This document shows, piece by piece, positions 8,785-31,431 of a stretch of 33,640 bases of DNA (its first letter is position 1; every line of letters begins with the position of its first letter). The translations under genes and the position numbers were made by a program. Source of the stretch: a virus; the IMG/VR virus record IMGVR_UViG_3300025674_000186, positions 1-33,640 of that record; one strand, 5' to 3'. The notes under the pieces are model-generated. The model was not told where the DNA came from and ran no database searches. It was given only the letters and a program-made list of their open reading frames with translations.

Positions 8785-9017
8785 ATGATGAAATACCTAA
8801 CTACGTTGCTTGGGTTCAATGTGAACCTGAACAATTAAATGAAGTTCGACAAATGTTTCCTGTCGAAAACTATGAGATTTTAATCGGAATTAAATCTAAT
8901 TATGATCCATTAACATGTGATGTTCACACCCTTAACAACCCACCAGCCCCTACATGGGGCGTAGAAGTTTGGAAAAGAGAAACAAATGGAAGATGTGAAG
9001 GACTATCTCCTAAATAA
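8763..9017 (+). CDS. Hypothetical protein, 84 aa
   Basis: Not recognised. An acidic, probably alpha/beta protein with a Pro/Trp-rich C-terminal part (NNPPAPTWGVEVWKRE). It overlaps the dCMP deaminase gene by 22 bases and the RNA polymerase gene by 32 bases, so it is translated within the same chain. No catalytic motif is visible. Confidence 0.65.
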   Translation: MQVYYKLDDEIPNYVAWVQCEPEQLNEVRQMFPVENYEILIGIKSNYDPLTCDVHTLNNPPAPTWGVEVWKRETNGRCEGLSPK

Positions 9018-11103
9018 AATTCGTGGTGAAGACTTAGGTGTCAAACCAAGACGTAACTTACAATTAATGCGTATGATTGACACAGATGGTGTTGATATGC
9101 TTGACTTCTTAATAGAAGACATGATAACATTCGCAAGAAAAACGATACAACGCTGTTTTAAGCGTAGTAAAACTGAGGGTGAAGCAGCAATTACTCAAGC
9201 TTCAATGGCAATCGGTAAATATATTATCGAAGGCTGGGATAGCACTAATGTAAACTTTAGAGACCATGTACGAGTAGGTGATTTAGTTATCGAAGGCTTT
9301 GTTATGTGTGGTTATTTAACAATACAAGTAGGCCATATGAAAAGCCGTAAGCCCGTTACTATACATGCTACTGATAAATGGGGTGAAATGGAGGCTATTG
9401 CTGGAAGAACTCTTTGTATTAGCGAAGAACCAATTGCGCCTATTACTAGTTTAATCCAAGCCAACGGTAGAAGTGTTATTAAAACATGGGATAAATCTAA
9501 AGAGTTTAAATTTATTAAACATCGTGAAGCCCCGTTTGTTAAAGCAATAGATAAATTACAATCAACTCGTTGGCTTATTAATGCTGATGTTCATAAAGCT
9601 ATCATGCAACAGTGGGATTCATTTATTAGTAATGAAGAATTTACTGGTGAAGATGAAAAAGAAAACGATAAACTATATCAACGTCAAGCCTCAAAGAACC
9701 GTGAGGTAAAAGAAGTAATGGCTATCGCAGCGAAATGGCTGCATAAAGAATTTAGCTTTTACATTGATGCAGATTACAGAGGCCGTTTATATTATGCAGA
9801 GCCTTTCTTTAACTTTCAAGGTTCAGATATTGCAAGAGGCCAGTTGTTATTTGCTAAAGGTAAACTATTTGATAGCACTGCTAGCTTCTGGCTTGGTGTT
9901 CATACAGCTTGTTCTTACAATCAGTCTTACAACATTGACGAGATCCCTGAATGGGTCACTACAGATTATCGTAGTGTACTTGAGCAAGAAGAACTCGATA
10001 CTATTTCTGTAGACAAAATGACACTTGAAGATAGAGCAATGTGGACTCAACAAAACATAGATAGCATAATAGAGTTTGGTGAACGCAAAGTGTTTATGCA
10101 TGAAGCAGAAAAGCCTATCTCGTTTTTATCGTGCTGTATCGAATGGTATAAGTATTCTCAGTGTAAAGGAGACTTCTATACTCAGCTACCTGTACCTATT
10201 GATGGCGCTAATAATGGTTGGCAACATTTAGGTGCTATGTCTAAAGATAAAAAGACGGGCGCTCTTGTTGGTCTTGTTCCTACTGAAATACAAAACGATT
10301 TCTATGTACAAGTAGCTAAGCGACTTACTCAACGTATGCCTGAATGGTTTGAAGAACGTCAAATGCCTATGAAACATATTCGTAAAGGTATTGCTAAACG
10401 TGGTGCTATGACTCGTGCTTATAGCTGTGGCCAAAAGAAAATGTCTGAATCTATGTATAGCGATTGTTACCAATATGGTTATACCGAAGAATATAATATT
10501 TCTACTTGGGATTGTGACGAGCTAAGTAATCAAGTTATTAGAGCAATTCAAGAAGTTTGTCCAGGCCCGTTAGATACTATGCGTTACTTACAAAGATTAG
10601 CTGAACAAGAAATAACTAATTGGTTTAAAGAATATGGCACAGATAGAGGCCGTGGAATTGAATGGATAACTCCATCTGGCTTTCCTGTTATATATGAATG
10701 TTATCGTACTCGGCCTGTTAAAGTAGACTGTTATGGTTTTAATACACCAACAGGAGAAATTCGCTTTAAACATGTTATCAGAGAGAAAACAGATATCCCT
10801 GATAGGCGTGGCTTTATGTGTGGTATTAGCCCTAACTTTGTTCATAGCATGGATGCTGCTCATATGGCTCTTACTGTAGCTAATTGGGATGGTGAATTTG
10901 GCGCTGTGCATGATTCATTTAATACACATGCAAGTGATATAGAGTTACTTATGAATAAAACTCGTAATGAGTTTGTATCTATTTATGATACAGAAAACTT
11001 TTATGATAGTATTCCTTTCGGAAGAGGCTATCAAGGCATTGTGCCTACAATCGGTACGTTAGATATTAAAAACGTACAAGATTCAGATTATTTCTTCTGT
11101 TAG
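8986..11103 (+). CDS. T7-like single-subunit RNA polymerase
   Basis: The 705-aa protein contains all the core motifs of the family. DxxGR is DYRGR (D263, R267), followed by FQGSDIARGQLLFAKGK. Motif A is DGANNGWQH (D406). Motif B is K467/K471 with MTRAYS (Y479). Motif C is VHDSF (D643). A hydrophobic foot ends in FFC, like the aromatic C-terminus of T7 RNA polymerase. It is about 180 residues shorter than the T7 enzyme (883 aa). D406 corresponds to T7 D537, so most of the loss is in the N-terminal promoter-binding half. Total size is close to the two-part N4 RNA polymerase II. It lies at the end of the left arm, next to the convergent structural arm, and probably transcribes that arm. Confidence 0.95.
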   Translation: MEDVKDYLLNKIRGEDLGVKPRRNLQLMRMIDTDGVDMLDFLIEDMITFARKTIQRCFKRSKTEGEAAITQASMAIGKYIIEGWDSTNVNFRDHVRVGDLVIEGFVMCGYLTIQVGHMKSRKPVTIHATDKWGEMEAIAGRTLCISEEPIAPITSLIQANGRSVIKTWDKSKEFKFIKHREAPFVKAIDKLQSTRWLINADVHKAIMQQWDSFISNEEFTGEDEKENDKLYQRQASKNREVKEVMAIAAKWLHKEFSFYIDADYRGRLYYAEPFFNFQGSDIARGQLLFAKGKLFDSTASFWLGVHTACSYNQSYNIDEIPEWVTTDYRSVLEQEELDTISVDKMTLEDRAMWTQQNIDSIIEFGERKVFMHEAEKPISFLSCCIEWYKYSQCKGDFYTQLPVPIDGANNGWQHLGAMSKDKKTGALVGLVPTEIQNDFYVQVAKRLTQRMPEWFEERQMPMKHIRKGIAKRGAMTRAYSCGQKKMSESMYSDCYQYGYTEEYNISTWDCDELSNQVIRAIQEVCPGPLDTMRYLQRLAEQEITNWFKEYGTDRGRGIEWITPSGFPVIYECYRTRPVKVDCYGFNTPTGEIRFKHVIREKTDIPDRRGFMCGISPNFVHSMDAAHMALTVANWDGEFGAVHDSFNTHASDIELLMNKTRNEFVSIYDTENFYDSIPFGRGYQGIVPTIGTLDIKNVQDSDYFFC

Positions 11104-11112
11104 GAGGTTATT

Positions 11113-11361
11113 ATGGAAGATAAAAATTGGCTTGCACAGACAGGCAGAAACTATTCTGATATAGACTTTAAAGAACTTGGAATTCCCGATGAGCTTATCG
11201 GACAAGAAGGATTTAATCGTGCTATGTTAGATCGAATGCACGCAGAAAATATGGCTGGATATATTGAAGACGGTATGTCAGAAGCACAAGCACGGTTTGA
11301 AGCAGATAAACGTAGAAGTATGGCTTTAAAAGCCGCAAAAGCTAACGGACTTAAATTATAA
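11113..11361 (+). CDS. Hypothetical protein, 82 aa
   Basis: Not recognised. A soluble, Ala/Met/Glu-rich, mostly helical protein. TAGGAGG directly after the RNA polymerase stop is one of the best ribosome-binding sites in the left arm, suggesting strong translation. It is the last gene of the + strand block, followed within four bases by the convergent terminator hairpin. Confidence 0.75.
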   Translation: MEDKNWLAQTGRNYSDIDFKELGIPDELIGQEGFNRAMLDRMHAENMAGYIEDGMSEAQARFEADKRRSMALKAAKANGLKL

Positions 11362-11364
11362 AAT

Positions 11365-11410
11365 AAAATACCCCACAAGGTTTCCATAAGGATTCCCTGT
11401 GGGGTATTTT
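11365..11410. terminator. Bidirectional intrinsic terminator between convergent arms
   Basis: A perfect 13-bp inverted repeat, AAAATACCCCACA (11365-11377) and TGTGGGGTATTTT (11398-11410), encloses a 20-base loop. T-rich sequence follows the stem on both strands (TATTTTTATTT on +, TATTTTATTTTAT on -). It lies exactly between the last + strand gene and the last - strand gene, so it can end transcription from both arms. Confidence 0.9.
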
Positions 11411-11413
11411 TAT

Positions 11414-14400
11414 TTAAGTAAATTGTGATCTTTTACGTTCTTCTTTTTTCAATTTATTTCTTCTTGCATCAGTTTCCACAATCATCTTATCAAGATCAGG
11501 TCTAATTCTAAGAATATCTATTGTTGCAAAGAAAAGCTGTTCAAAAAATTCAGCATCTACTTTAAAAGATTTATCACCTAAACTTTGATTAGGTTTTTCT
11601 GCTGCTAAACCACGCATTTGTTGTGCTGCTCTTTTAAATAATGCATTTCTTTCGTCTGTACTAATTCCTCTTACATCTGAGCTTATTATTGTTTTATAAC
11701 GTGGCGCTCCATTACTACCAATATTATAAAAATCACCTAAAGCTTTATATTCACCTTCTGTTCCTAAATCAAACATTTCACCTGTTTCTTTAGCTTGATT
11801 TATTTTAACTGTAATACGCTTAAGCATATCTTCAAATGAATCTTTTTCAGCTTTTAACATATTATATTTTTGATTTACTTCATCAAAAGTGCTATTAGCT
11901 GTTTGTTCTAAGTCTGTAAATGAATTAGCGTCACCAATAAATGCATCATAAATTTGCATTACCGTTGCAGTTGGATCACGTTTAACTGCTCTAGCTACGA
12001 CTAATTGCGCTATTGTAGCATCAATATTTTGTGTAGCATTAACTGCAGCTTGATTACGAAGCTTACTTCCTAAATCAAAAGAAGTATATTCTCCTTCACC
12101 TAAATATTTAATTGCTGCACTTGCAGATGCTGAAGGCACTCGCTCTTTTAATGAAATATCTGCAGCAAAACGTTTAGGACTTCCAGGTCTATTGCTTTGA
12201 GTTCCTGGGCCAAAGTTAAATTTAACTTGTCCTGTTGCAGTAATAGGCATATTACGTATTCCTGCAAGCATTGGGTCTTTATCTACATATTCAAAACCGC
12301 CTGACTGAACAGGTGCGCCATTTGCGCCTACAGTTACCATAATTTCATTAGCAAAATTATGCGCCCGACCAATACGTTTAGCCATTTTAGAATGTTCTAA
12401 TGCACCGCCTAATCCTAATCGTAATCCTTGTTCAATATGTTCTCTTAATTCTTGAATAAGTGTAGCTTCTGTTACACCATTTTCAATGATAACATTTTCA
12501 AATAATTCAGGATTATCGTTAATAAATTGCCTAGCATGTTGTTTATGATGTTTAGGATCTTTACCATAAATTGAAGTCATAATAGGTAATTTCATTAATT
12601 TTTTAATTAAGATTGGATTTGCTTTTATAGCATTAAATATATCACCCCAATAAAGTTTTCCTACTTCACCTGTTTGACTTGCCATGATAATAAATACATC
12701 ATCACGAATATCACCTTCTAAAGCTTCTGCTTCTTCTTTAGATAACGTAGCTAAATCTAAATCGGTTTCATAAGTATCTCCAATTTTTTGATATAACACT
12801 CCACCTTTTCTTAACAAGTTATCAACACCCATTTGGTAGCCTTGTATTACTGCTCCATTTGAGTTGCCATCAACTTCAGCTTTAACTCTTGTTCCAAACT
12901 TACCACCATCAGGAGTAATTAAGTAACGAGCTAATTCATGCAATCCATCTAAAGCAAAAAAGAAAGTATCATTATCATGATGCTGTTTTAAAAATGCTTG
13001 CAAATCTGGTGTAACATTTAATGGACTAGCGCTTGGTATTTTTGCACCAGCAGCAATAGCTTGTTGTACCCTTGTATTATGCTGTACATTATTTTGTGTA
13101 TATCTAAGTAATTGTCTACCCCATTTAGCTAAACGCATTAAAGGTTTACCTGTATTAGGATCTATTTCAGTTAACTCATCACGCAAAGCTTTTAATTGAT
13201 CGGCACGAGTCATTTTGTCTGCGCCTAAAATAACACTTCTTGCTATAACTCTAAAGAATCCTTCTTCTCTAGTAAACTTTTGGTAGCCTTTATCTCCTGG
13301 AGCTTTATTTCCATTACTTTCTGCTTTTTTAATAGCACTATTTAACGCTCTTCTTGCACCGCTAACTCCATCTTTTCCTTGTGCTGATTTAGTAATTAAT
13401 ACAGGCTCTGCACCATGAACTAAAAATCTAGCAAGTTTATTTGCTTGATAATTTAATTCATCGTTAGTAATCATTAGCCTTGTTGAGTTATTAATTGTAG
13501 TGTAACCATAATGAAATGTGGTGTTTACACGATTAAAACCATCTGCAAGTGTTTCTTTTCTTTCTGATAAATGATTTTCAATAATTTGTCTAGTATTAAA
13601 CTCTGCTGCTTCTTCAAAAGTTCTGTAAGGTCTTTCTCTTTGACTTCTTACATCAAAATAAGAGCCTAACATTGCAGGAGTTAATAATGGGTTTCCATTA
13701 CTATCTACTTTACTTCCTTTATCTTTGTAATCTTTTAATAGCTGCGCTCTTTTCTTTTGAAAATAAGCATTACTTTGTTTTGTTATATCTGAAAAAACAT
13801 TATTTGATGTATATTGTGTTCCGCTTGCTAATACTCCAGAATAAAGAATAGCAGAATGCATTGGTACAGTATGTGTTCGGCTTGCTAATGCATCAACCCC
13901 TTCTTGTACTATGTTTACACCATTTACTTTAACTCTATTTTCTAAGGGTAATGGTCCACCTGTATCTCTTTTTTGTACAAAAGCAGCAGCACCTCTCATG
14001 CGACCGCCCTCTGTTTGGACTAATGATACAGGCTTATCTCTAGTTGCAGACATCCCTAGCTTAGCGCGAATACCTTTTCGCATTGCATTAAGCTTTGCAT
14101 CTCCTGCTCTTGTAGTTTTAAATACAATTTTAGTATTACCTTCAGGTGTAGTGATTGTTTGTTCTTGAAATAAATTATTCCAGTTTGCACTAGCAAGACC
14201 TTGTAAAACTATTTCACCTACAATTCTATGTTCATCATCAGTTAATTTTGACTTATAACCATATCTATCTGATGCACCTGTAAACAAAGCATTAGGGTCT
14301 TGCATTTCAGGATCTGTCATTAATCGTTCTGCTAAACGAGATATCCCTGCGCCTAACACACCTCTATCTAATGCATTATCGTACTCTCTATCTGTAAGTG

Positions 14401-15289
14401 TATCTGTTTCACTATTCATTAATAGTGTTTTATTAGATATTTCTAATAGAGTAGCAATCATAAATGCTGCCCCTGCTTCTTCTCTTAATCCTGAATTAGG
14501 GTCTGAATTATCTTTAAGCAAATTTAATTTACGATCATTCTTTAAGGCAAAATTAAAAGTATCTGAATTCCTAAACAAAACGCCTTGCGGATCACTATCC
14601 ATTTCACTAGCTGATATGTTTTCAGTATCAATTTTATTTCCAAAGATTGTTAAACTTCCTGCGTCTGAATCAAAACCTTTGCGAGCAAAATTAACCATAT
14701 CACTAAAGTTTACAAACCCGTCTTTCTCACCGATTTCAGCCTTAACAAAGCTATCAATTTCTTTAGCTAATTGATCTCCTCCTGTTTCTTGAGTTAAGAT
14801 AGCACGAGGAGTAGCCGCTTCTTGCGTTAATGTTGCTTCAGCTGCTGCTTGAATTTCTGGTCTATTTAATTGACTAATTCTATCTGTTTGAGGATCTGGA
14901 AACAAACCTGCTTGCTCATACTGACGCATACCTGCTGCTTCTAATTCATCTACCATTGCTTCTGGTACTTGTATATCAGGAAAAGGCTGTATGCTTTCTT
15001 GTGGTCCAAGGTCTGCACGCTGAGTTCCTACAAACGTTTCTGCGCCTGTAGGATCCCCTGTTATCATTGTGTCTTGTAATTCTTCAACTGGTGTTTGAAC
15101 AATAGTTTCAGTTGGCGTGTCTAATCTTTCTTTTAAAGCTTGCTGGTCTGCCATTTCAGCAGCCATTGCTCTTGTTTGCTCTAACTCAGATTGCATAGAC
15201 TCTTGATCACGAAGTCGTTGATCGGCTTGCCTTCTTTGACTATAGAAGTCTGTACCAGCATTTCTTGATGTTACTATTTTCTGGGCCAT
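11414..15289 (-). CDS. Putative virion RNA polymerase (N4-type, compact), 1291 aa
   Basis: The catalytic motifs of single-subunit RNA polymerases are visible. Motif A is VDGNSNG (D807, compare T7 D537). Motif B is KKLMKLPIMTSIYG with K896, K900, M904, T905, Y908, G909 at exactly the spacing of T7 R627, K631, M635, T636, Y639, G640. Motif C is QIYDAF (D1115, compare T7 H811-D812). Before motif C, NIDATIAQLVV aligns with the SMDAAHMALTV of the T7-like enzyme in this window. Around 600-630, NNSTR (R604) then NYQANKLARFLVHGAEP aligns with DxxGR and its downstream strand, though the Gly is lost. D807-K900 spacing is 93 against 94 in T7. The first 160 residues are Gln/Glu/Thr-rich and disordered-looking. 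As the last gene of the structural arm, beside an ejection-type protein, it is probably packaged and injected, as in N4 (whose vRNAP is about 3500 aa). Packaging is inferred. Length and neighbours could alternatively suggest a plain internal virion protein, but the motif set argues against that. Confidence 0.8.
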   Translation of the reverse strand: MAQKIVTSRNAGTDFYSQRRQADQRLRDQESMQSELEQTRAMAAEMADQQALKERLDTPTETIVQTPVEELQDTMITGDPTGAETFVGTQRADLGPQESIQPFPDIQVPEAMVDELEAAGMRQYEQAGLFPDPQTDRISQLNRPEIQAAAEATLTQEAATPRAILTQETGGDQLAKEIDSFVKAEIGEKDGFVNFSDMVNFARKGFDSDAGSLTIFGNKIDTENISASEMDSDPQGVLFRNSDTFNFALKNDRKLNLLKDNSDPNSGLREEAGAAFMIATLLEISNKTLLMNSETDTLTDREYDNALDRGVLGAGISRLAERLMTDPEMQDPNALFTGASDRYGYKSKLTDDEHRIVGEIVLQGLASANWNNLFQEQTITTPEGNTKIVFKTTRAGDAKLNAMRKGIRAKLGMSATRDKPVSLVQTEGGRMRGAAAFVQKRDTGGPLPLENRVKVNGVNIVQEGVDALASRTHTVPMHSAILYSGVLASGTQYTSNNVFSDITKQSNAYFQKKRAQLLKDYKDKGSKVDSNGNPLLTPAMLGSYFDVRSQRERPYRTFEEAAEFNTRQIIENHLSERKETLADGFNRVNTTFHYGYTTINNSTRLMITNDELNYQANKLARFLVHGAEPVLITKSAQGKDGVSGARRALNSAIKKAESNGNKAPGDKGYQKFTREEGFFRVIARSVILGADKMTRADQLKALRDELTEIDPNTGKPLMRLAKWGRQLLRYTQNNVQHNTRVQQAIAAGAKIPSASPLNVTPDLQAFLKQHHDNDTFFFALDGLHELARYLITPDGGKFGTRVKAEVDGNSNGAVIQGYQMGVDNLLRKGGVLYQKIGDTYETDLDLATLSKEEAEALEGDIRDDVFIIMASQTGEVGKLYWGDIFNAIKANPILIKKLMKLPIMTSIYGKDPKHHKQHARQFINDNPELFENVIIENGVTEATLIQELREHIEQGLRLGLGGALEHSKMAKRIGRAHNFANEIMVTVGANGAPVQSGGFEYVDKDPMLAGIRNMPITATGQVKFNFGPGTQSNRPGSPKRFAADISLKERVPSASASAAIKYLGEGEYTSFDLGSKLRNQAAVNATQNIDATIAQLVVARAVKRDPTATVMQIYDAFIGDANSFTDLEQTANSTFDEVNQKYNMLKAEKDSFEDMLKRITVKINQAKETGEMFDLGTEGEYKALGDFYNIGSNGAPRYKTIISSDVRGISTDERNALFKRAAQQMRGLAAEKPNQSLGDKSFKVDAEFFEQLFFATIDILRIRPDLDKMIVETDARRNKLKKEERKRSQFT

Positions 15290-15291
15290 AA

Positions 15292-18200
15292 TTATTCTCC
15301 GTCTCTAAAGGCTCTCGGTACTTTTAATTGTGCAGCATCAGTTAATATCCCTCTTAAAACTGGGCTTGCAGAAACTACAGGTGTTATCTTAGTGACATCT
15401 TTAAGGAAGCCTTCGTAATCACCTTCTGCTACCTCTGCAACTGCATCTTTAGCTGTATTTAATATTCTTAATGCTGGCGCACCGCCTACAGTTTCACCAA
15501 ACAATCTTTCTACTAAGTTTTCTCCACGATCTTGATACATAGGTGCTGCAACTTGAAGTATACGTTCACCTGTACCTAGAATACCTGATGACATTAATGC
15601 ACGTTGAACTAGCTGTGCATCATTAAGGTATGGCGTACTGCCTCCAAACTTAATATAATCTTTAAGCCATTGTGAAGCACCTGCAACCCCCATCATAGTA
15701 ACCATAAGTGCAAATGTGTTATATTTCATTTTAGGACTACCATTTTTTAAATAGTCATTCCAAAGTCGAGGAACAATATTAGCAGTAAAAGTAGAAATAA
15801 AACCATTAAACTGTACAAATAATTGAAAATGCGGATCTTGATAAAACAAAGGTCTATTGTAGGCTTGTGGATTCTGAATACGATCATTAACAAAATACCA
15901 TGTAACAGTATCTAATTGATCATTTACTTCACTTCTTAATTCTACAATATCAGGATCTTGATTTCCATCATCCATATATTTATCAAATATTGTTTGACCA
16001 TTAGCATCAACATCAGGAAACATTATTGCTCTTTGAAGTTCAATAAACCTTTCTACATCCATACCTAAGTCAACTAATTGACGATAAACATCTAATTGAT
16101 CTTGATTATATGGTTCATCTTCTTTTTTAGCCATGAGTATGCGAATACGGTCACTGACAAAACCTGAAACCGAAGCAGCTGCCATTGATCTTTGCAACTG
16201 CGTAATCCCTGCAATACCTGTCCATTTAAAGAAAGCTTTTTGAAACCATGCTTTACTAACATCAACTTCTCCTAATCCATATCGTGTTGCTACTGTAGCG
16301 TCATCAGGAAATAAACCTGCTGCAATAAGATTTTGAACAGATTGGCGATATATAGGCGCTTTAGGTGCGTTTGCTAATGTCGGATGTACTTTCATCTTAG
16401 CAATATCTTTTAATCCACCTACCATTTCACCTACAAAAGTATGTATTGCATCATTAATAGCTTTCATTCCTGTTCCTTGGTATATTAACATAATAAACTC
16501 AGGAAAAGAACTAATTGCTGCAAAAGGCAAACCAATAATTGTAGTAAAGAAAGCACCTGTTCTTTGGAATGCTGCTAGCTTTCTATTTTTAATTGATTTA
16601 AAATTACCTGTTGCTGCATCAATTATGCTTTTAGTATGATAAGCCATTTCAGCTATTTCTTCTTTAGTTAAACCGTCTGCTTCCATTTCAGCAAACAATT
16701 GATCTAAGTGTTTGCCTCCTGCCCCAAAGTATTCTGTATAAGCTGCATACTTTGCTGTTTGATTAACTGTATTCATTGCATTTTGTAATATATTAGTATT
16801 AGCAAATTGTTCATAGCCAGGTTTTTTAGATAACGACTTAAGACCGCCCTTACCTGCTCCAGGAATATATTCAATTCCTTCAACAACAGAAAAATCAGTA
16901 GCATCTTCATTATTAGAAATTTTATTATATAGCATTTCTAATTCTGCTTCAGTATACAATTGATTTCCTTTATCATCAGTTGCATTTTTACGCATCCATT
17001 TAAACCATGCATCACGATTATTTCTTACTTTAGACCAATCCCAGCTTTGTTCATTTAACCATGAATCAGGATCATACTCTAAGTTTTCTCTATTTAAACC
17101 TTGATTTACATAAATACTATTCTTTAAATTATATTCATCAAATGCAAACTCTCTTAATTCAGCTATCGTTGCTTCAATTTGATCTGCATATTTTAAAGTC
17201 TCAGGACTTAATTGATTGCGATCACCATTAACCGCTGAATATTCGCGTATCATATCTGAAATTTTTTGTGAGTTTTTAACTCTATCAGACATTCCAAATC
17301 TTTTAAATACTCTTTGAGGATTTATTTTAGTTAAAAATTCAGCCCTGTATTTACTTGTTTGCGACTCAACATCTCTTCCTGAATATAATCTACCTAAAGG
17401 TTGACCAATTAAAGCATAGAGCTTTCTAGCTGCTGCAGAGCGCCTTAATAATTCAGGTCTAAACGCTGTTGTTGCTGCAGCTCGATATAACTCAGGTACA
17501 TATTTACTAGGATCTTTTAACTTAGTCCAAAAATTACCTCTTAATTTTTCACCAGCTGCTGCACGATTGCTTGCATCTGCACCGCCTTCTTTCTTTTTTG
17601 TTTTAGTGTTAAGATCTTTTGTAATATCATATATATTACCTTGCGGCCCTATCTCCATTCCTAGTTTACCAAACTCATTAAGCCGATCTACACGACCTAA
17701 CATTAAGCCTTTTTGCATTGCAGCACGATCACCTGCTTCAATGATTTGTCCTGCTGTACCAAAAGTAGCACCTAATGTTCCACCTGCAACTGCAGCTTGA
17801 GCAAGTATATTTGAAAATTCATTTGGATTAAAGTTTTCTTTTAATCCACCTTCTGATAATATATTAGAAGCAAGATAGCCTGTACCCTCTTGTCCGACTT
17901 CAGTAGCTAATTCACCAATGCCACCACGAGCAGAGCCTCTAAATATGTTTTTAATAATTGCACTATTATTAACGTGGTCTGAAGAAAAATTACCTATGCC
18001 TTCAATAGCGCCTTTGATTACTGATTTAGTTTCTTTTTTAACTAGCTCTTTAGCTTGTGCAGTAGATAATCCTCGTTCTTGTCTTAAATATTTATATACT
18101 GCTTGACGACCATTTGCAGTTAACAAAGCTGACGGAGGCATAATTGCAGCCATACCAAGACGATCTAATACTGCCATTGCAGTACCTGCCATCATAGCTC

Positions 18201-19305
18201 CTGCCGCTTCTGGTCTACCTTTTGGGCCTTTAATATCATTCCATACATTACCTGAATGTACACCAAACATTGAGCCATAAGCAATAGGCACACTTGCACC
18301 TAATGTTACTGGAGACAATACATGCCCTGCTGTAAGTGTAATTAAATAAGGCGCTGACATTGCCATATTATTAGTCATAAATTGCCATGCATCAAATAAA
18401 CCATCAACATCACGGTAATCAATATTACGAAGTATTGGCGATCTAGATAAATCTTCTTTAGCTATTTCAACATTTTCTGCACCCCAATTTTCAAGCGTTT
18501 CACTTCCTAGTGTTACCCCTGCTAACTCTGCAAAGCCTGCTAATGCAGTTGTCATTCCTTTCCATCCAGTGTTCCATGACTCAGTCATTTGATTATAGGC
18601 AACACCTTCTCTTGTTCTATCGCCATATCTAAAATCAATAGCGCTAAAAGGAACACTACGGCTATCATACTGTCCGTCTAATGCAACATTATAAGCTTTA
18701 CGATAGCCTTCCTCTGTTGCTAAGTTATACCCCTTTTGATCTGCAACTGTTTCAACTACTGCTTGTAAATATTCTTTCTCATTTAATGCAGCTTCTTTAA
18801 ATAAAACAGGTGTTTCTTTTACTTCTTGCAGTTCTTCATTTACTATATTAGCATAATCTCGTTTGCCACGTAGCTGTTCTTTTAACCTACCAGATTCAGC
18901 TGCTCGTTGTCCTTCTTCATCTGTAAATATATTTGTATCAACAGCGCCTGAGCGATATAAGGTATTAGTTAAATCTTCACCAACTGCATTTTGAATTCTA
19001 ACAAGACGACGACCAAAACTATCTACCTCACCTGTATCTATAATTTTATTAAAGCCACCTGTGCTTGCAATTTTAGATACTGCTGATGTTGTTTCTCTGC
19101 CTCCAAGTTGACCTCTTATAAAACGAGGTACTCCATCTTCAACAATTATTTTATTTGTTTCAGGTGCGTTATAACCTACAATACGGAGGTCTTGACCGCT
19201 TCCATCAGATATTGTATCTGCATCTACCCATTTGTAAGTCTTATTATCTGCACCTTGAAACTCTGCAAACTCAACATCTACAAATGCATCATTTTTTTCA
19301 GCCAT
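15292..19305 (-). CDS. Large internal virion protein with N-terminal nuclease (SNase-like) domain
   Basis: At 1337 aa this is the size of T7 gp16 (1318 aa) and occupies a comparable late position. Residues about 20-125 look like a staphylococcal-nuclease domain. VDADT (D28, D30) and LRIVGYNAPE supply R41 and E49 at the family's eight-residue spacing, DSFGRR supplies R99 (the R87 equivalent), and GEDLTNTLYRSGAV follows as in the family. One calcium ligand (D40) is replaced by N46. Hydrophobic, Gly/Ala-rich segments near 315-350, 368-395, 485-510, 913-943 and 1198-1218 could insert into host membrane during DNA ejection. It sits two bases upstream of the putative virion polymerase gene, with AGGAGG before its ATG, downstream of a promoter-like element. 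It is probably ejected with the genome. The nuclease activity is inferred. Confidence 0.75.
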   Translation of the reverse strand: MAEKNDAFVDVEFAEFQGADNKTYKWVDADTISDGSGQDLRIVGYNAPETNKIIVEDGVPRFIRGQLGGRETTSAVSKIASTGGFNKIIDTGEVDSFGRRLVRIQNAVGEDLTNTLYRSGAVDTNIFTDEEGQRAAESGRLKEQLRGKRDYANIVNEELQEVKETPVLFKEAALNEKEYLQAVVETVADQKGYNLATEEGYRKAYNVALDGQYDSRSVPFSAIDFRYGDRTREGVAYNQMTESWNTGWKGMTTALAGFAELAGVTLGSETLENWGAENVEIAKEDLSRSPILRNIDYRDVDGLFDAWQFMTNNMAMSAPYLITLTAGHVLSPVTLGASVPIAYGSMFGVHSGNVWNDIKGPKGRPEAAGAMMAGTAMAVLDRLGMAAIMPPSALLTANGRQAVYKYLRQERGLSTAQAKELVKKETKSVIKGAIEGIGNFSSDHVNNSAIIKNIFRGSARGGIGELATEVGQEGTGYLASNILSEGGLKENFNPNEFSNILAQAAVAGGTLGATFGTAGQIIEAGDRAAMQKGLMLGRVDRLNEFGKLGMEIGPQGNIYDITKDLNTKTKKKEGGADASNRAAAGEKLRGNFWTKLKDPSKYVPELYRAAATTAFRPELLRRSAAARKLYALIGQPLGRLYSGRDVESQTSKYRAEFLTKINPQRVFKRFGMSDRVKNSQKISDMIREYSAVNGDRNQLSPETLKYADQIEATIAELREFAFDEYNLKNSIYVNQGLNRENLEYDPDSWLNEQSWDWSKVRNNRDAWFKWMRKNATDDKGNQLYTEAELEMLYNKISNNEDATDFSVVEGIEYIPGAGKGGLKSLSKKPGYEQFANTNILQNAMNTVNQTAKYAAYTEYFGAGGKHLDQLFAEMEADGLTKEEIAEMAYHTKSIIDAATGNFKSIKNRKLAAFQRTGAFFTTIIGLPFAAISSFPEFIMLIYQGTGMKAINDAIHTFVGEMVGGLKDIAKMKVHPTLANAPKAPIYRQSVQNLIAAGLFPDDATVATRYGLGEVDVSKAWFQKAFFKWTGIAGITQLQRSMAAASVSGFVSDRIRILMAKKEDEPYNQDQLDVYRQLVDLGMDVERFIELQRAIMFPDVDANGQTIFDKYMDDGNQDPDIVELRSEVNDQLDTVTWYFVNDRIQNPQAYNRPLFYQDPHFQLFVQFNGFISTFTANIVPRLWNDYLKNGSPKMKYNTFALMVTMMGVAGASQWLKDYIKFGGSTPYLNDAQLVQRALMSSGILGTGERILQVAAPMYQDRGENLVERLFGETVGGAPALRILNTAKDAVAEVAEGDYEGFLKDVTKITPVVSASPVLRGILTDAAQLKVPRAFRDGE

Positions 19306-19322
19306 TAAAACCTCCTGTAAAT

Positions 19323-19378
19323 AAAAAATCCCTAAGGGATCCTCCCTATAAGGGTGTATTATGGATCTCTTAGGGATT
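19323..19378 (-). terminator. Intrinsic terminator (minus strand) enclosing a promoter
   Basis: A 16-bp inverted repeat with one mismatch: AATCCCTAAGGGATCC at 19327-19342 and GGATCTCTTAGGGATT at 19363-19378. On the - strand it is followed by six T residues (19328-19323). It lies just after the 974-aa gene and before the 1337-aa gene, so incoming late transcripts would meet it. The loop holds the promoter-like element described separately, giving a stop-and-restart arrangement. Confidence 0.75.
19338..19367 (-). promoter_or_regulatory. Candidate promoter for the phage T7-like RNA polymerase (P2)
   Basis: Read on the - strand, the gap contains ATAATACACCCTTATA followed by GGGAGG. This resembles the T7 promoter (TAATAC near the upstream end, TATAGGGAG at the start) with a spacer two bases shorter. 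It matches the element at 31461-31490 over nearly its whole length. The predicted start at the GGG (19346) would produce a short leader ending in AGGAGG before ATG 19305, driving the SNase-like internal protein and the putative virion polymerase. Confidence 0.7.
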
Positions 19379-19381
19379 AAA

Positions 19382-22306
19382 TTATCTTATTAGATTATTT
19401 TTCTTACCTATTCCAATAAGCCTTTCTATCTCATCAGGCTCAGTTTTACTTGCCCATAGAGTAAATGCGCTCCATTGTTTTTCAGGTTCTTTTTCATCAA
19501 ATCGATTTGCTGCATCAGAATTAAATTTAGCAGCTTGTTCTGGATCTCCAAACTTAGAATTTAAAATTGCCCAAGCTTGATAAGTACCCTGCCATTGATT
19601 ATAATAATCTTGAGCATAAGTTAAATAAGTACCATCTGGTTGTTTAATTCTTTGCTTTGGACTCTTAATTGTCATACTACGTTTAATTGCGTTATCTAAT
19701 TTACGCATATTAACTGGTGAAGTTTTACCTACAATTTCCATAGGTATACCTGTTAATACTTCACGAGTTTGCATATCAATATAGTCACGAACATTACGTG
19801 GCTCAATAGAAGACTTCTTTTGACTAAATGCAATTTTAGCTTTAATAAAGTCATCAATTCCCGCTTGAACTTTTGTTGCTAATGCATCTGCATCATTAAT
19901 TGAAACTCCATTTTGCCTAAGTATTTCTCTATAACGAGTTTCTGCTCTGTCTCCAATATCTTTTTCATTAAAGTAAACACGATCATCAAATGATTTTTTA
20001 TCTTTAGTTCCTTGAAAAAGACCTGCCTCGCTATTTCTTTGTTGAGAAGCTTCTTTAGCAAAATCAGAGAAATTCTTTTGCATAGCACCACGCCCTTGAA
20101 CGGACTCATCCCATGGTTCTATAAATCCTGCAAGGCTTGCTACCGATCTTAATTTACCTTCATATTCGACATAATCTAGTTTATCATCGCCTTCAAACAC
20201 TTGCACTTTACCTATTCCAGGAAGATAAGCGTTGCCTGCAAGTCCTTTTATTTTAACTCCTGCAGGTGCTTTCTTTTGAAGAACAGTATAATCTCTTCCC
20301 CTGCCTGCTTCAAACTCTTTGCGAGACTCTTCTGTAAAGTCTAAGTAATCATCATCACGAATATCTTTTTGATATTGTGCTTCAGCTGCTTCTATCCGTC
20401 CCATATATGTTTTAGCACTATAAGCAAATGAAGCGTTATGATCATACCCCATAAGACGACTACCTGTATAAACTAATGCCATACGAGCAAGTTCTTTTGG
20501 ACTAAACAAATCACCAAATGCATCTTTAAAAGCATTTATCGCAACTTTTTTCATGTCTGGAGGAGCGTTATCACCTTTATCTTTGAGGTCATCCTCATTT
20601 CCTGGAGGTGGTTGATCTTTTGAATCAACTGAATCTGCTACAGTTTTAAGTGTACTATATTGAGTTGAATTAGTTACACCTGAATCCTCAAGTTGTTCAT
20701 CTTTTGGTTCTTTAAATTCACCTGAGTCAACATCATAAGTTTGATTTTTTGCAGCTTCTTTAATTACATCTTCATTTTCATTTGCAATTTTTTCAGCATG
20801 ATCATCTCTTATTTTAGTAACTTCTTCTACTTTTGCCAAAGCAGCTTTATGAGCATTTATTAACTCACTAGAAACAGGTAATCCTTTTGCCTGATTATCT
20901 TTAATTTTATTACCAATTTTGTCAGCTTCTGCTTGTCTAGCTTTTACTTGACCACTATTAAAATTACCTACTAATCTATCTTTATCAGGCAGCATATCTA
21001 ATAATGTTGCGTTTGGAACTCCAGGCGCATCTAATGGGACAGGTACACCAAGAAATTCTGCAGGATACATAAAGGCTCTTTTAATTTGAGTTTTTGTTTG
21101 ATCCGATGGAGTTAAATAAGATAAAAAACTTTCATCTTCTTCAGGCTTTGGTGGCATCTGATTTACAGGAGGCACACCACGAGTACCATCATCAACACGA
21201 GGTCTTGCTTGTTCTAACATTTGAGCATCTGATACATCATCACTAGCTTGTGCTTTACTAATTAAAGAAAAACCTGATCCTTGATCAGCGTCTGCAGTTG
21301 CATAAGGCGTTTTAAATAATTCCATTTCTCTAGCTCTACGTGCTTCAAGTCCTGGAAGAACTTCACCACCTGCCATACGAAATTCTGAAGCTTCTTTTTG
21401 AAAAGTGTCAAAGTCACCTGCATTAAGTGCAGCACGAGCTTTACTTACTTCAAATTGAGGACCACCAATATTAAACAACAATGATTTAACTGCTGTTTGT
21501 TGATTAGGATTTAATTCAACATCAACTAAATTATTATAATCATTTTCTACAACTGCAATATCTTTTATTAATTGTTGATTTGCCTCTGCATCAGATAATT
21601 TGTCACCCATTTTAACACCGTAAGTGCTACCATATCCTATGGTTGGAACACCTGCTGGGTCTCGATAAGCTTCATTTCGAAGGCCTTCTTCTTCTTTTAA
21701 AAATTCAGCAAGCATACCTGTATTAGCATACCTAGGTATTTTACCGCCATCTGAGTTATACAAAGAACTAAAGTCCCAAGTATTCTTACGACTACTACGG
21801 TTAGGCTTGCTTTCTTCTAGCTTACCAAGATACTTTTGACCACCGCCTGATCCTTTACGTTCAGTAAATTGACCAATAGAACCATCTTGCAATCTTCTAT
21901 AAACAATTCCTGGAGGAGCAGGCGGAAGCGTTACTGCATCAACTGCACTTTGGTACAGCCCTGAAAGACCTGAAATAAATCCACCATCGGATTCATAAGT
22001 AGGAATAGGTCCACCTTGTGCCTTTTGTATCATGCGACCTTCTTCGTTCATTTGGTCAATCATTTCTTGATTGCCTGGAATACGAGAAGCCTCCGCATTA
22101 ACTACATTTTCTCCAGGAGTTAGCCATGCAGGTACTGTATCAGTTCCTTTAGGATCTCCAGGATGATTACTAGTGTCTGCACCATTATATCCATCAGGCA
22201 TATCAGGTATCATCATCATCATTGGTACAGTAACTTCTGGCTCAAAGAACTCTATGGAGAACATGTTACCATATCGGTCTTTATTAGTAAGACTTTTTAG
22301 TTTCAT
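19382..22306 (-). CDS. Internal virion protein with embedded GH24 lysozyme domain, 974 aa
   Basis: Residues about 198-335 form a T4-type lysozyme (GH24) domain. E207, D216 and T222 in EEGLRNEAYRDPAGVPTIGYG have the spacing of T4 E11/D20/T26, and the domain ends with GLEARRAREMELF, as in many muramidases. Upstream, LTPGENVVNAEA (about 63-74) matches a motif recurrent in phage tail and minor structural proteins. The C-terminal two thirds are charged and helical without a recognised domain. It is probably a virion-associated murein hydrolase that opens a local path through peptidoglycan during entry, the role of the transglycosylase in T7 gp16. It is flanked by the CFI-box protein and by the promoter/terminator gap. 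AGGAGA precedes the ATG. Confidence 0.8.
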   Translation of the reverse strand: MKLKSLTNKDRYGNMFSIEFFEPEVTVPMMMMIPDMPDGYNGADTSNHPGDPKGTDTVPAWLTPGENVVNAEASRIPGNQEMIDQMNEEGRMIQKAQGGPIPTYESDGGFISGLSGLYQSAVDAVTLPPAPPGIVYRRLQDGSIGQFTERKGSGGGQKYLGKLEESKPNRSSRKNTWDFSSLYNSDGGKIPRYANTGMLAEFLKEEEGLRNEAYRDPAGVPTIGYGSTYGVKMGDKLSDAEANQQLIKDIAVVENDYNNLVDVELNPNQQTAVKSLLFNIGGPQFEVSKARAALNAGDFDTFQKEASEFRMAGGEVLPGLEARRAREMELFKTPYATADADQGSGFSLISKAQASDDVSDAQMLEQARPRVDDGTRGVPPVNQMPPKPEEDESFLSYLTPSDQTKTQIKRAFMYPAEFLGVPVPLDAPGVPNATLLDMLPDKDRLVGNFNSGQVKARQAEADKIGNKIKDNQAKGLPVSSELINAHKAALAKVEEVTKIRDDHAEKIANENEDVIKEAAKNQTYDVDSGEFKEPKDEQLEDSGVTNSTQYSTLKTVADSVDSKDQPPPGNEDDLKDKGDNAPPDMKKVAINAFKDAFGDLFSPKELARMALVYTGSRLMGYDHNASFAYSAKTYMGRIEAAEAQYQKDIRDDDYLDFTEESRKEFEAGRGRDYTVLQKKAPAGVKIKGLAGNAYLPGIGKVQVFEGDDKLDYVEYEGKLRSVASLAGFIEPWDESVQGRGAMQKNFSDFAKEASQQRNSEAGLFQGTKDKKSFDDRVYFNEKDIGDRAETRYREILRQNGVSINDADALATKVQAGIDDFIKAKIAFSQKKSSIEPRNVRDYIDMQTREVLTGIPMEIVGKTSPVNMRKLDNAIKRSMTIKSPKQRIKQPDGTYLTYAQDYYNQWQGTYQAWAILNSKFGDPEQAAKFNSDAANRFDEKEPEKQWSAFTLWASKTEPDEIERLIGIGKKNNLIR

Positions 22307-29691: not shown

Positions 29692-31431
29692 TTAAGCGCA
29701 CTCTTTTTGGCCAGTTGTCGGGTCGAAAAAGCAAGCCTCTGCCGTTCCTTCTTCTTTAACCAACGGCGTAACCGTGCTAGATACCGTCTCTTTTTCTTCC
29801 ACGGTTTCGTTAAGGATACCGTATCTTTTACCACTAAGTCTAAACGTTGTACATCCCTTCGCCCTGCCTTTCCAGGCATCAACATAAACCTGTTTGAACT
29901 CATCATAAGTAACATCATCTCCTACATTGCAAGTTTTAGAACACGCTGAATCAATGTATTCTTGTGCAAGTAATAGTACTTTAAGATGTTCTTGTACGTT
30001 TGTTTCGTTAGCTGTTTTACCTTTAACTCCCATTGAGTAAGCATAATCTTCAACTCGTTCAACTTTTGGTCCTTCAAAAGTCTGGATAGTTCTATCGTAG
30101 TAATGACTAAAGACAGGTTCAATTCCTCCTGATACGTTATCTGCGCATAGGCTAATCGTGCCTGTAGGCGCAATTGAAGTTAAGTGGCTGTTTCTAATTC
30201 CGTTTGTTTTAATAGACGCATACACATCATGACTAAGTGATTTAATAAATTCGCCTTCTAAATATTGTTCATTATAGAGTGGAAAAGCTCCTTTTTCTGC
30301 TGCAAGTTCAGATGAGGTTCTATATGTTTCGTCTCTGAGAGTTTTGAAGACGGTAGCCATCCAAGCAAGGAAGTCATCTGAAGCATACGGGTATCCCAAT
30401 AATTCGCCAGCATTGGCAAGTCCTGTGACTCCAAGCCCCATTCTTCGTTTATTTTTTGCTTCATCCTCTTGCTCCTTTAATGGATAAATAGTTCTATCAA
30501 TAACATTATCCATAGCTCTTACTACGTGTTTAATATCTTGTTTAAAGTGTTCATAATCAAACTCATCTGATTCTACATATTGAGTTAAATTAAATGAACC
30601 AAGAAGACAAGCACCAAAAGCAGGGAGTGGTTGTTCACCACAAGGATTAGTAGCTTCTATTGTTTCACAATACCATAAATTATTATTGTCGTTTATTCTA
30701 TCAATAAACAATACCCCAGGCTCTGCCCAGTCCCATGTTGATTCCATAATTTCAGACCACAGTTCCCTCGCAGATATTCGTGAGTAAGTAGTACCGTCAA
30801 AAGTAAGATCAAAGCCATCATCATCTTCATTTAATATGGCCTCCATAAACTTATCAGTAATTCCCACTGAGATGTTAAAGCCAGTAAGCTTATCACTATT
30901 ACGCTTAGCTCGAATAAAATCAAAAATATCAGGGTGATCGACACGCAATACGCCCATTTGCGCTCCACGGCGATGGCCACTTGACGCGATAGTTTGACAG
31001 ATAGAATCAAAAATGCCCATAAAACTGACAGGGCCGCTAGATTTAGAATCAAGAGATTTAATAAGATCGCCCCTAGGACGAATACGAGAAAAATCGTACC
31101 CAATGCCGCCTCCTCGTCTCATTGTTTCTGCAGCATTACAAGCTCTTTCCATAATACTATTCATAGAGTCTTCAATAACTCCTGATACAAAACAATTGTA
31201 AGCAGTAGTAATTCGAGGACTACCCATAGCGTTTTGAACACGACCAGCAGGAAGAAAACGCATATTGCCTAAGATATCTTCCAAATGATATTGATGTTCT
31301 ATTCCGTCTGATAATGCCCTTGCTATGCGTTTAATTTTACCGTCAAAATCCTCATCTTGTAATCGGTATTTCATCTGATCGATTTCTTCTGAAATAGGCA
31401 TCGATGGACCTACATATGCTGTGTTTCTCAT
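29692..31431 (-). CDS. nrdJ: Ribonucleoside-diphosphate/triphosphate reductase, class II (B12-dependent)
   Basis: The 579-aa enzyme has the class II signatures. LPAGRVQNAMGS leads into NCFVSG (first redox Cys) and RRGGGIGYDFS. NPCGEQPLP carries the radical Cys and Glu, followed by GACLLGSFNLTQYV. SIAPTGTISL is the phosphate-binding loop. The C-terminus ends with two cysteines at 567 and 578 that can re-reduce the active site. It is at the short end for NrdJ. No small subunit gene is nearby, as expected for a cobalamin enzyme. It makes deoxyribonucleotides for phage replication. Unusually, it sits inside the late arm between lysozyme and tail nozzle, directly after candidate promoter P1. Confidence 0.9.
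   Translation of the reverse strand: MRNTAYVGPSMPISEEIDQMKYRLQDEDFDGKIKRIARALSDGIEHQYHLEDILGNMRFLPAGRVQNAMGSPRITTAYNCFVSGVIEDSMNSIMERACNAAETMRRGGGIGYDFSRIRPRGDLIKSLDSKSSGPVSFMGIFDSICQTIASSGHRRGAQMGVLRVDHPDIFDFIRAKRNSDKLTGFNISVGITDKFMEAILNEDDDGFDLTFDGTTYSRISARELWSEIMESTWDWAEPGVLFIDRINDNNNLWYCETIEATNPCGEQPLPAFGACLLGSFNLTQYVESDEFDYEHFKQDIKHVVRAMDNVIDRTIYPLKEQEDEAKNKRRMGLGVTGLANAGELLGYPYASDDFLAWMATVFKTLRDETYRTSSELAAEKGAFPLYNEQYLEGEFIKSLSHDVYASIKTNGIRNSHLTSIAPTGTISLCADNVSGGIEPVFSHYYDRTIQTFEGPKVERVEDYAYSMGVKGKTANETNVQEHLKVLLLAQEYIDSACSKTCNVGDDVTYDEFKQVYVDAWKGRAKGCTTFRLSGKRYGILNETVEEKETVSSTVTPLVKEEGTAEACFFDPTTGQKECA

Follow-up and report, generated by a model that had tools for sequence, protein, structure and literature searches.

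The final gene of the structural arm of this phage fragment, whose product has 1291 amino acids (aa), probably encodes a core-only virion RNA polymerase (RNAP) that would be packaged and then ejected to start early transcription; both packaging and activity are inferred. In this reading, the protein would belong to the T7 superfamily of single-subunit, right-hand RNAPs, with the N4-type catalytic core as its closest counterpart, and would do without the N-terminal (~1000 aa) and C-terminal (~1400 aa) domains of the N4 enzyme. The single-subunit virion RNAPs known so far are giant proteins, and the role of their huge flanking domains and their passage through the tail remain open questions. From a natural enzyme barely larger than the mini-vRNAP core, one could learn which parts are needed for packaging, ejection, and early transcription. 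The enzyme class is already known; its compact form was not described in the literature that we searched.

A preliminary description of this DNA, made from sequence alone, had proposed that the product is an RNAP and a nearly core-only version of the N4 virion enzyme. The RNAP identity is supported by the predicted fold, by conservation among homologs, and by the profile register with T7 and N4 polymerases. The second claim is also supported, the N4-type vRNAPs rather than the T7 types being the likely nearest family by profile.

Organization of the Locus

The window, i.e., the whole stretch of DNA analyzed, is a 33,640-bp linear phage fragment from IMG/VR in which the early genome end is missing. 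Its rightward arm encodes SSB, DNA polymerase, exonuclease, primase/helicase, dCMP deaminase, and a T7-like RNAP, and its leftward arm contains virion structural proteins, ribonucleotide reductase, lysis genes, and one tail gene (table 1). The T7-like RNAP, an ordinary enzyme of its type that adjoins the 1291-aa gene, was absent from the preliminary description. Where the arms converge, a perfect 12-bp stem (11366–11377 and 11398–11409) is flanked by T-rich tails on both strands, and this element is a likely bidirectional terminator. The 1291-aa open reading frame (ORF) begins with ATG, and a GGAGAA site upstream of it overlaps the stop of the preceding 1337-aa gene.

The large-subunit gene of ribonucleotide reductase (29692–31431) sits within the structural arm; the corresponding arm of Roseobacter phage CRP-7 also contains reductase genes. 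In a separate observation, approximately residues 25–105 of the 1337-aa protein (DADT...RIVGYNAPE...DSFGRRLVRI) resemble staphylococcal-nuclease-like motifs by eye, without a Pfam call.

Table 1. Features of the RNAP Locus, with Positions in the Window
Feature	Position	Strand	Evidence
T7-like RNAP, 705 aa, presumed middle/late RNAP	8986..11103	+	Pfam RNA_pol E 6.6e-59; PHROG 414 E 5.5e-103
Likely bidirectional terminator where arms converge	11360..11415	both	read from sequence
Putative virion-type single-subunit RNAP gene, 1291 aa	11414..15289	-	conservation, profile match, predicted fold
Motif C, Y1114-D1115-A1116	11942..11950	-	
Stretch confidently aligned with N4 mini-vRNAP 195–699 (residues 301–928)	12506..14389	-	hhalign E 7.9e-21
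Motif B, K896...K900...M904...Y908-G909	12563..12604	-	
Motif A, E805-V-D807-G-N-S-N-G812 (N4 signature ExDGxxxG)	12854..12877	-	
R604–R621, matching the GR region and N4 K437/R440 (K618 and R621 here)	13427..13480	-	
Presumed ejection protein, 1337 aa, Cys-free, translationally coupled to RNAP gene	15292..19305	-	
Presumed ejection protein with lysozyme domain, 974 aa, Cys-free	19382..22306	-	Pfam Phage_lysozyme E 3e-34

Homologous Family and Conserved Residues

Single-sequence searches with the 1291-aa protein (Pfam, PDB sequences, tblastn of 50,697 phage records, and patterns in viral contigs) returned nothing, and a family profile found no RNAP among PDB sequences. The case therefore rests on profile–profile and structure comparison. 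The family itself could be reached only via the adjoining T7-like RNAP, which gave 61 related loci, and further scans enlarged this set. Wherever a related locus was long enough, a gene for ~1150–1320 aa was found on the opposite strand directly after the T7-like RNAP gene.

Fifty family members were gathered, some with identity to the 1291-aa protein as low as 15%, and the mean column identity of their alignment was 19%. Only 11 columns were invariant: R604, R621, D807, G812, R862, Y908, G991, G1074, D1090, D1115, and N1132. The position of K900 is occupied by Lys in 43 members and by Arg in the other seven, while K618 and M904 are each kept in 49 of the 50 and G909 in 48. Given such invariance across diverged homologs, the motifs occur more than chance would allow. 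The residues claimed in the preliminary description (R604, D807, K896/K900/M904/Y908/G909, and D1115) are all present in the ORF, the claimed D807–K900 spacing of 93 (94 in T7) held, and its proposed check of conservation among homologs was passed, R604, D807, Y908, and D1115 being among the invariant columns.

The motif ExDGxxxG, characteristic of N4-type vRNAPs (PMC10654107), is present in the 1291-aa protein, and its Glu is present in 17/50 family members. Two divergences had been feared as weaknesses, namely the missing Gly of the GR region and a Tyr in place of the motif C His. Because genuine schitovirus vRNAPs show both, these features are N4-like and not weaknesses: the GR Gly is replaced in Zuri (VAR), Ea9-2 (VNR), ZX86 (TNR), EcP1 (NYR), and PAP02 (PQR), and many of these enzymes have FDG, YDG, or WDG as motif C. 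In addition, a sister clade carries the textbook SSVGR and HDA forms.

Among 30 scanned members, ten matched PHROG 414 (RNA polymerase) and three matched PHROG 2206 (virion RNA polymerase). A family HMM built without any T7-like RNAPs weakly found the T7-like RNAPs of the relatives (E 2e-4 to 1e-3) in the GR and motif C regions. A scan of genome contigs gave a single match, to a MAG contig labelled Bacteroidetes, which is too little to name a host.

Profile Comparison with N4 and T7 Polymerases

Using hhalign, we compared the family with 13 Schitoviridae vRNAP cores (Prob 99.3, E 7.9e-21) and with 17 diverse T7-type RNAPs (Prob 98.3, E 1.4e-14); the N4 and T7 types matched each other at E 5.4e-12. 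The 1337-aa neighbor and its homologs served as the negative control and gave E ~0.3 against both sets. All of these E-values refer to single comparisons. In a low-confidence full alignment, the ends of N4 mini-vRNAP fall at residues 135 and 1283. A search of N4 mini-vRNAP against eight relatives gave no match.

Each cited residue lands on its T7 and N4 counterpart in these alignments. In the order 1291-aa protein, T7, and N4, the register is R604 = R425 = R424, R621 = K441 = R440, and D807 = D537 = D559; K896 = R627 = R666, K900 = K631 = K670, and Y908 = Y639 = Y678 in motif B; and D1115 = D812 = D951 in motif C. The N4 match of motif C comes from a forced alignment and a separate run with the C-terminal part (E 1.1e-5). 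K618 corresponds to N4 K437, a position held by Asp in all T7 types but one. In N4, K437, R440, and E557 have been described as lying around the phosphates of the initiating NTP (PMC4496689).

Predicted Structure

An AF2 model of residues 130–1291 reached a pLDDT of 83.4 and a pTM of 0.86. The best PDB matches found by Foldseek were yeast mitochondrial RNAP (8atv, 5.5e-15), T7 RNAP (1cez, 1.4e-13), and N4 mini-vRNAP (3c3l, 1.4e-12), the best structural matches having TM-scores of ~0.4–0.57, and named virion RNAPs were among the viral matches. In the model, D807 lies just after a strand, K900 is in a helix that ends right before Y908, and D1115 lies between two strands. These predicted settings are those that palm and fingers should have in this superfamily. 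The check for a single-subunit RNAP fold in a model, also proposed beforehand, was thus passed at the level of prediction and without measured inter-residue distances. Homology and a right-hand single-subunit RNAP fold are very likely and well supported by the model; RNA synthesis is inferred.

A Cysteine-Free Gene Cassette

None of the three cassette proteins (1291, 1337, and 974 aa; 3602 aa in total) contains a cysteine (Cys). At the rate of the other large proteins of the window, ~15 Cys would be expected in the 1291-aa protein alone. Only four Cys occur in 59,438 residues across the 50 family members, compared with 18.9 per 1000 in related T7-like RNAPs (n = 112, a set with repeated loci) and 15 in the co-encoded 705-aa enzyme. 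Similarly, N4 gp50, gp51, and gp52 and T7 gp15 and gp16 have no Cys, and T7 RNAP has 12. Authors working on N4-like phages have linked the absence of Cys to ejection through the tail and periplasm (PMC3715699, PMC3915230), and in DEV (PMC10925440) and N4 (PMC12633501) the schitovirus vRNAP is one of the ejection proteins. Other virion proteins, such as the N4 major head protein and CRP-7 gp51, likewise lack Cys, so this property supports packaging but does not prove it.

The preliminary description had also claimed that the protein is packaged and injected, from its position beside a "gp16-sized" protein. The size is right, but the 1337-aa protein has no detectable similarity to T7 gp16, and no link was found to T7 gp15, N4 gp51, or the N4 N- and C-terminal domains. 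Packaging and ejection remain an inference, backed by gene location and now by the Cys-free cassette, in the absence of virion proteomics.

Relationship to the Adjoining RNAP

In a quick tree, all T7-like RNAPs, including that of the window phage, formed one clade on a long branch, and hence the 1291-aa gene did not arise recently by copying of its neighbor. The T7 and N4 clades were firm, and the position of the 1291-aa family relative to N4 was unresolved.

Identity of the T7-like RNAP among close relatives is 75–92%, whereas that of the virion-type gene drops to 22–28% in some of them, and that of the 1337-aa gene declines in parallel. For example, the T7-like RNAP, virion-type, and 1337-aa proteins share 89%, 24%, and 30% identity with those of locus L006 and 86%, 22%, and 28% with those of L010. 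Compared with L006, L010, L036, and L042, the whole cassette (11414–22306) shows far greater divergence than the T7-like RNAP, and its genes diverge jointly. This pattern suggests that the ejection cassette was swapped as a block or that change there has been much faster.

Comparison with Known Systems

The 1291-aa protein resembles the vRNAP of N4 and other Schitoviridae (gp50, with residues 998–2103 as the mini-vRNAP core) in its catalytic core by profile and fold, in the ExDGxxxG motif, in the K437/R440 pair, in having an aromatic residue that precedes the Asp of motif C, and in the lack of Cys. Like that of gp50, its gene closes the structural arm, next to Cys-free ejection genes and convergent with the early arm. 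However, it has 1291 aa rather than 2842–3820 aa, about one third the length of the N4 enzyme, N4-sized N- and C-terminal domains are absent, and the partner RNAP is a one-chain T7-like enzyme, not the RNAPII heterodimer. By inference the protein would function as an N4 vRNAP does, but since both the giant size with flanking domains and the RNAPII partner are missing, we file it apart from the schitovirus vRNAPs. T7 gp1 and other Autographiviridae RNAPs share the fold and the residues R425, K441, D537, R627, K631, M635, Y639, G640, and D812, but they are Cys-rich, have ~800–900 aa, are encoded outside the structural arm, and carry Asp at the K618 position.

The only annotated relative is CRP-7, which has the same gene order. 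Its gp33 is a hypothetical protein of 1235 aa without Cys, in which look-alikes of motifs A, B, and C are readable; as judged by eye, Arg replaces the catalytic Lys. The pairwise similarity of gp33 to the 1291-aa protein is marginal (E 0.035), whereas gp34, the product of the next gene, and the 1337-aa protein are clear homologs (E 1e-32). The CRP-7 paper noted only the T7-like RNAP, did not recognize gp33 as an RNAP, and described the phage as non-N4-like (PMC6918029). As CRP-7 is a cultured isolate with FZCC0042 as its laboratory host, the present claim is directly testable.

A large Cys-free protein of podophage StenR_269 was proposed as a putative vRNAP on the basis of size, helices, and lack of Cys, without motif or fold support (PMC10747016). 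Reference vRNAPs have 2842–3820 aa, and an IMG/VR survey of N4-like viruses dropped hits shorter than 2500 aa (PMC10654107), a cutoff by which a compact class would be discarded by design. The vRNAP of R22Y was reported at 2083 aa (PMC11705849).

Proposed Role and Alternative Explanations

Computation shows an RNAP fold with conserved catalytic residues, and the sequence shows that the gene closes the structural arm and is coupled to a cassette encoding large proteins without Cys. The remaining steps are inferred. The protein would be carried inside the capsid and would leave it together with the other cassette proteins, through the tail and periplasm; on entry, it would transcribe the early genes from unknown promoters, and may help to draw the DNA in, before the T7-like RNAP is made. 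The latter may then take over in the role of N4 RNAPII. Several points weigh against a core-only virion RNAP: no N4-type hairpin promoters turned up in early regions of the relatives; Arg takes the place of the catalytic Lys in 7/50 members and, by eye, in CRP-7 gp33; virion proteins of other kinds can be free of Cys as well; the tree leaves a sister relationship to the N4 vRNAPs unresolved; and the reading has neither virion proteomics nor activity data behind it.

The protein might instead be an active single-subunit RNAP that stays out of the virion and acts only late in infection, in the cytoplasm. Its gene does lie in the late arm, packaging has no direct proof, and T7-like promoter candidates occur on both arms of CRP-7. 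We consider this explanation unlikely in view of the absence of Cys in the protein and its near absence in the family, against the Cys-rich cytoplasmic-type RNAP of the same phage, the coupling of the gene to presumed ejection proteins, and a gene position identical to that of N4 gp50. It is similarly improbable that a structural ejection protein descended from an RNAP and lost polymerase activity. The very divergent sequence and the Lys-to-Arg change at K900 in some members would fit such a history, but D807, Y908, D1115, R604, and R621 are invariant in 50/50 members despite 15–20% identity, which argues for selection for catalysis.

Two other explanations can be all but excluded. Since both enzymes are single-subunit RNAPs with adjoining genes, a recent duplication of the phage's own T7-like RNAP could be imagined; it was rejected because that RNAP falls within the separate T7-like clade on its long branch and the family profile matches N4 better than the T7 types. 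The failure of Pfam and PDB sequence searches to find an RNAP would agree with an ordinary internal virion protein in which the motifs arose by chance; this explanation was rejected on the basis of conservation, the profile–profile matches with their negative control, and the predicted fold.

A bolder version of the virion RNAP reading is slightly easier to doubt than to accept. CRP-7-type phages might harbor a widespread and distinct lineage of core-only virion RNAPs, the N4 giant being a later elaboration of such an enzyme fused to membrane and regulatory domains, and an injected RNAP of ~1200 aa would begin transcription in these phages before a one-chain T7-like RNAP takes its place. If this were true, two single-subunit RNAPs would run the phage program.

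Promoter Candidates

Early regions of seven relatives showed no excess of N4-type hairpins with 3-nt loops; the window itself lacks the early end. No promoter-like repeat family was found in the window. In CRP-7, five intergenic copies of a TATAGTCCnnTATTAAAAGGA-like sequence, a T7-like promoter candidate, are each directed along their arm: three rightward (2027 +, 7148 +, and 14765 +, the last just before the RNAP gene) and two leftward (38279 - and, in record coordinates, 57229 -). This sequence is likely a phage-type promoter, and the enzyme using it is unknown.

Five tandem hairpins were observed in an early intergenic region of ~125 bp in one relative (L150, 3313–3439) and at matching sites in G002, G003, and G006. 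Most have loops of 3–5 nt, and the stems differ between genomes yet stay paired; no Rfam family reached its gathering score. As a promoter of the whole family this array was rejected, being confined to one sub-clade. Another promoter candidate is present in the early region of G004 (L149, reverse strand), where five copies are centered around TTCTATAAGGGGTATA, two of them arranged as a divergent pair.
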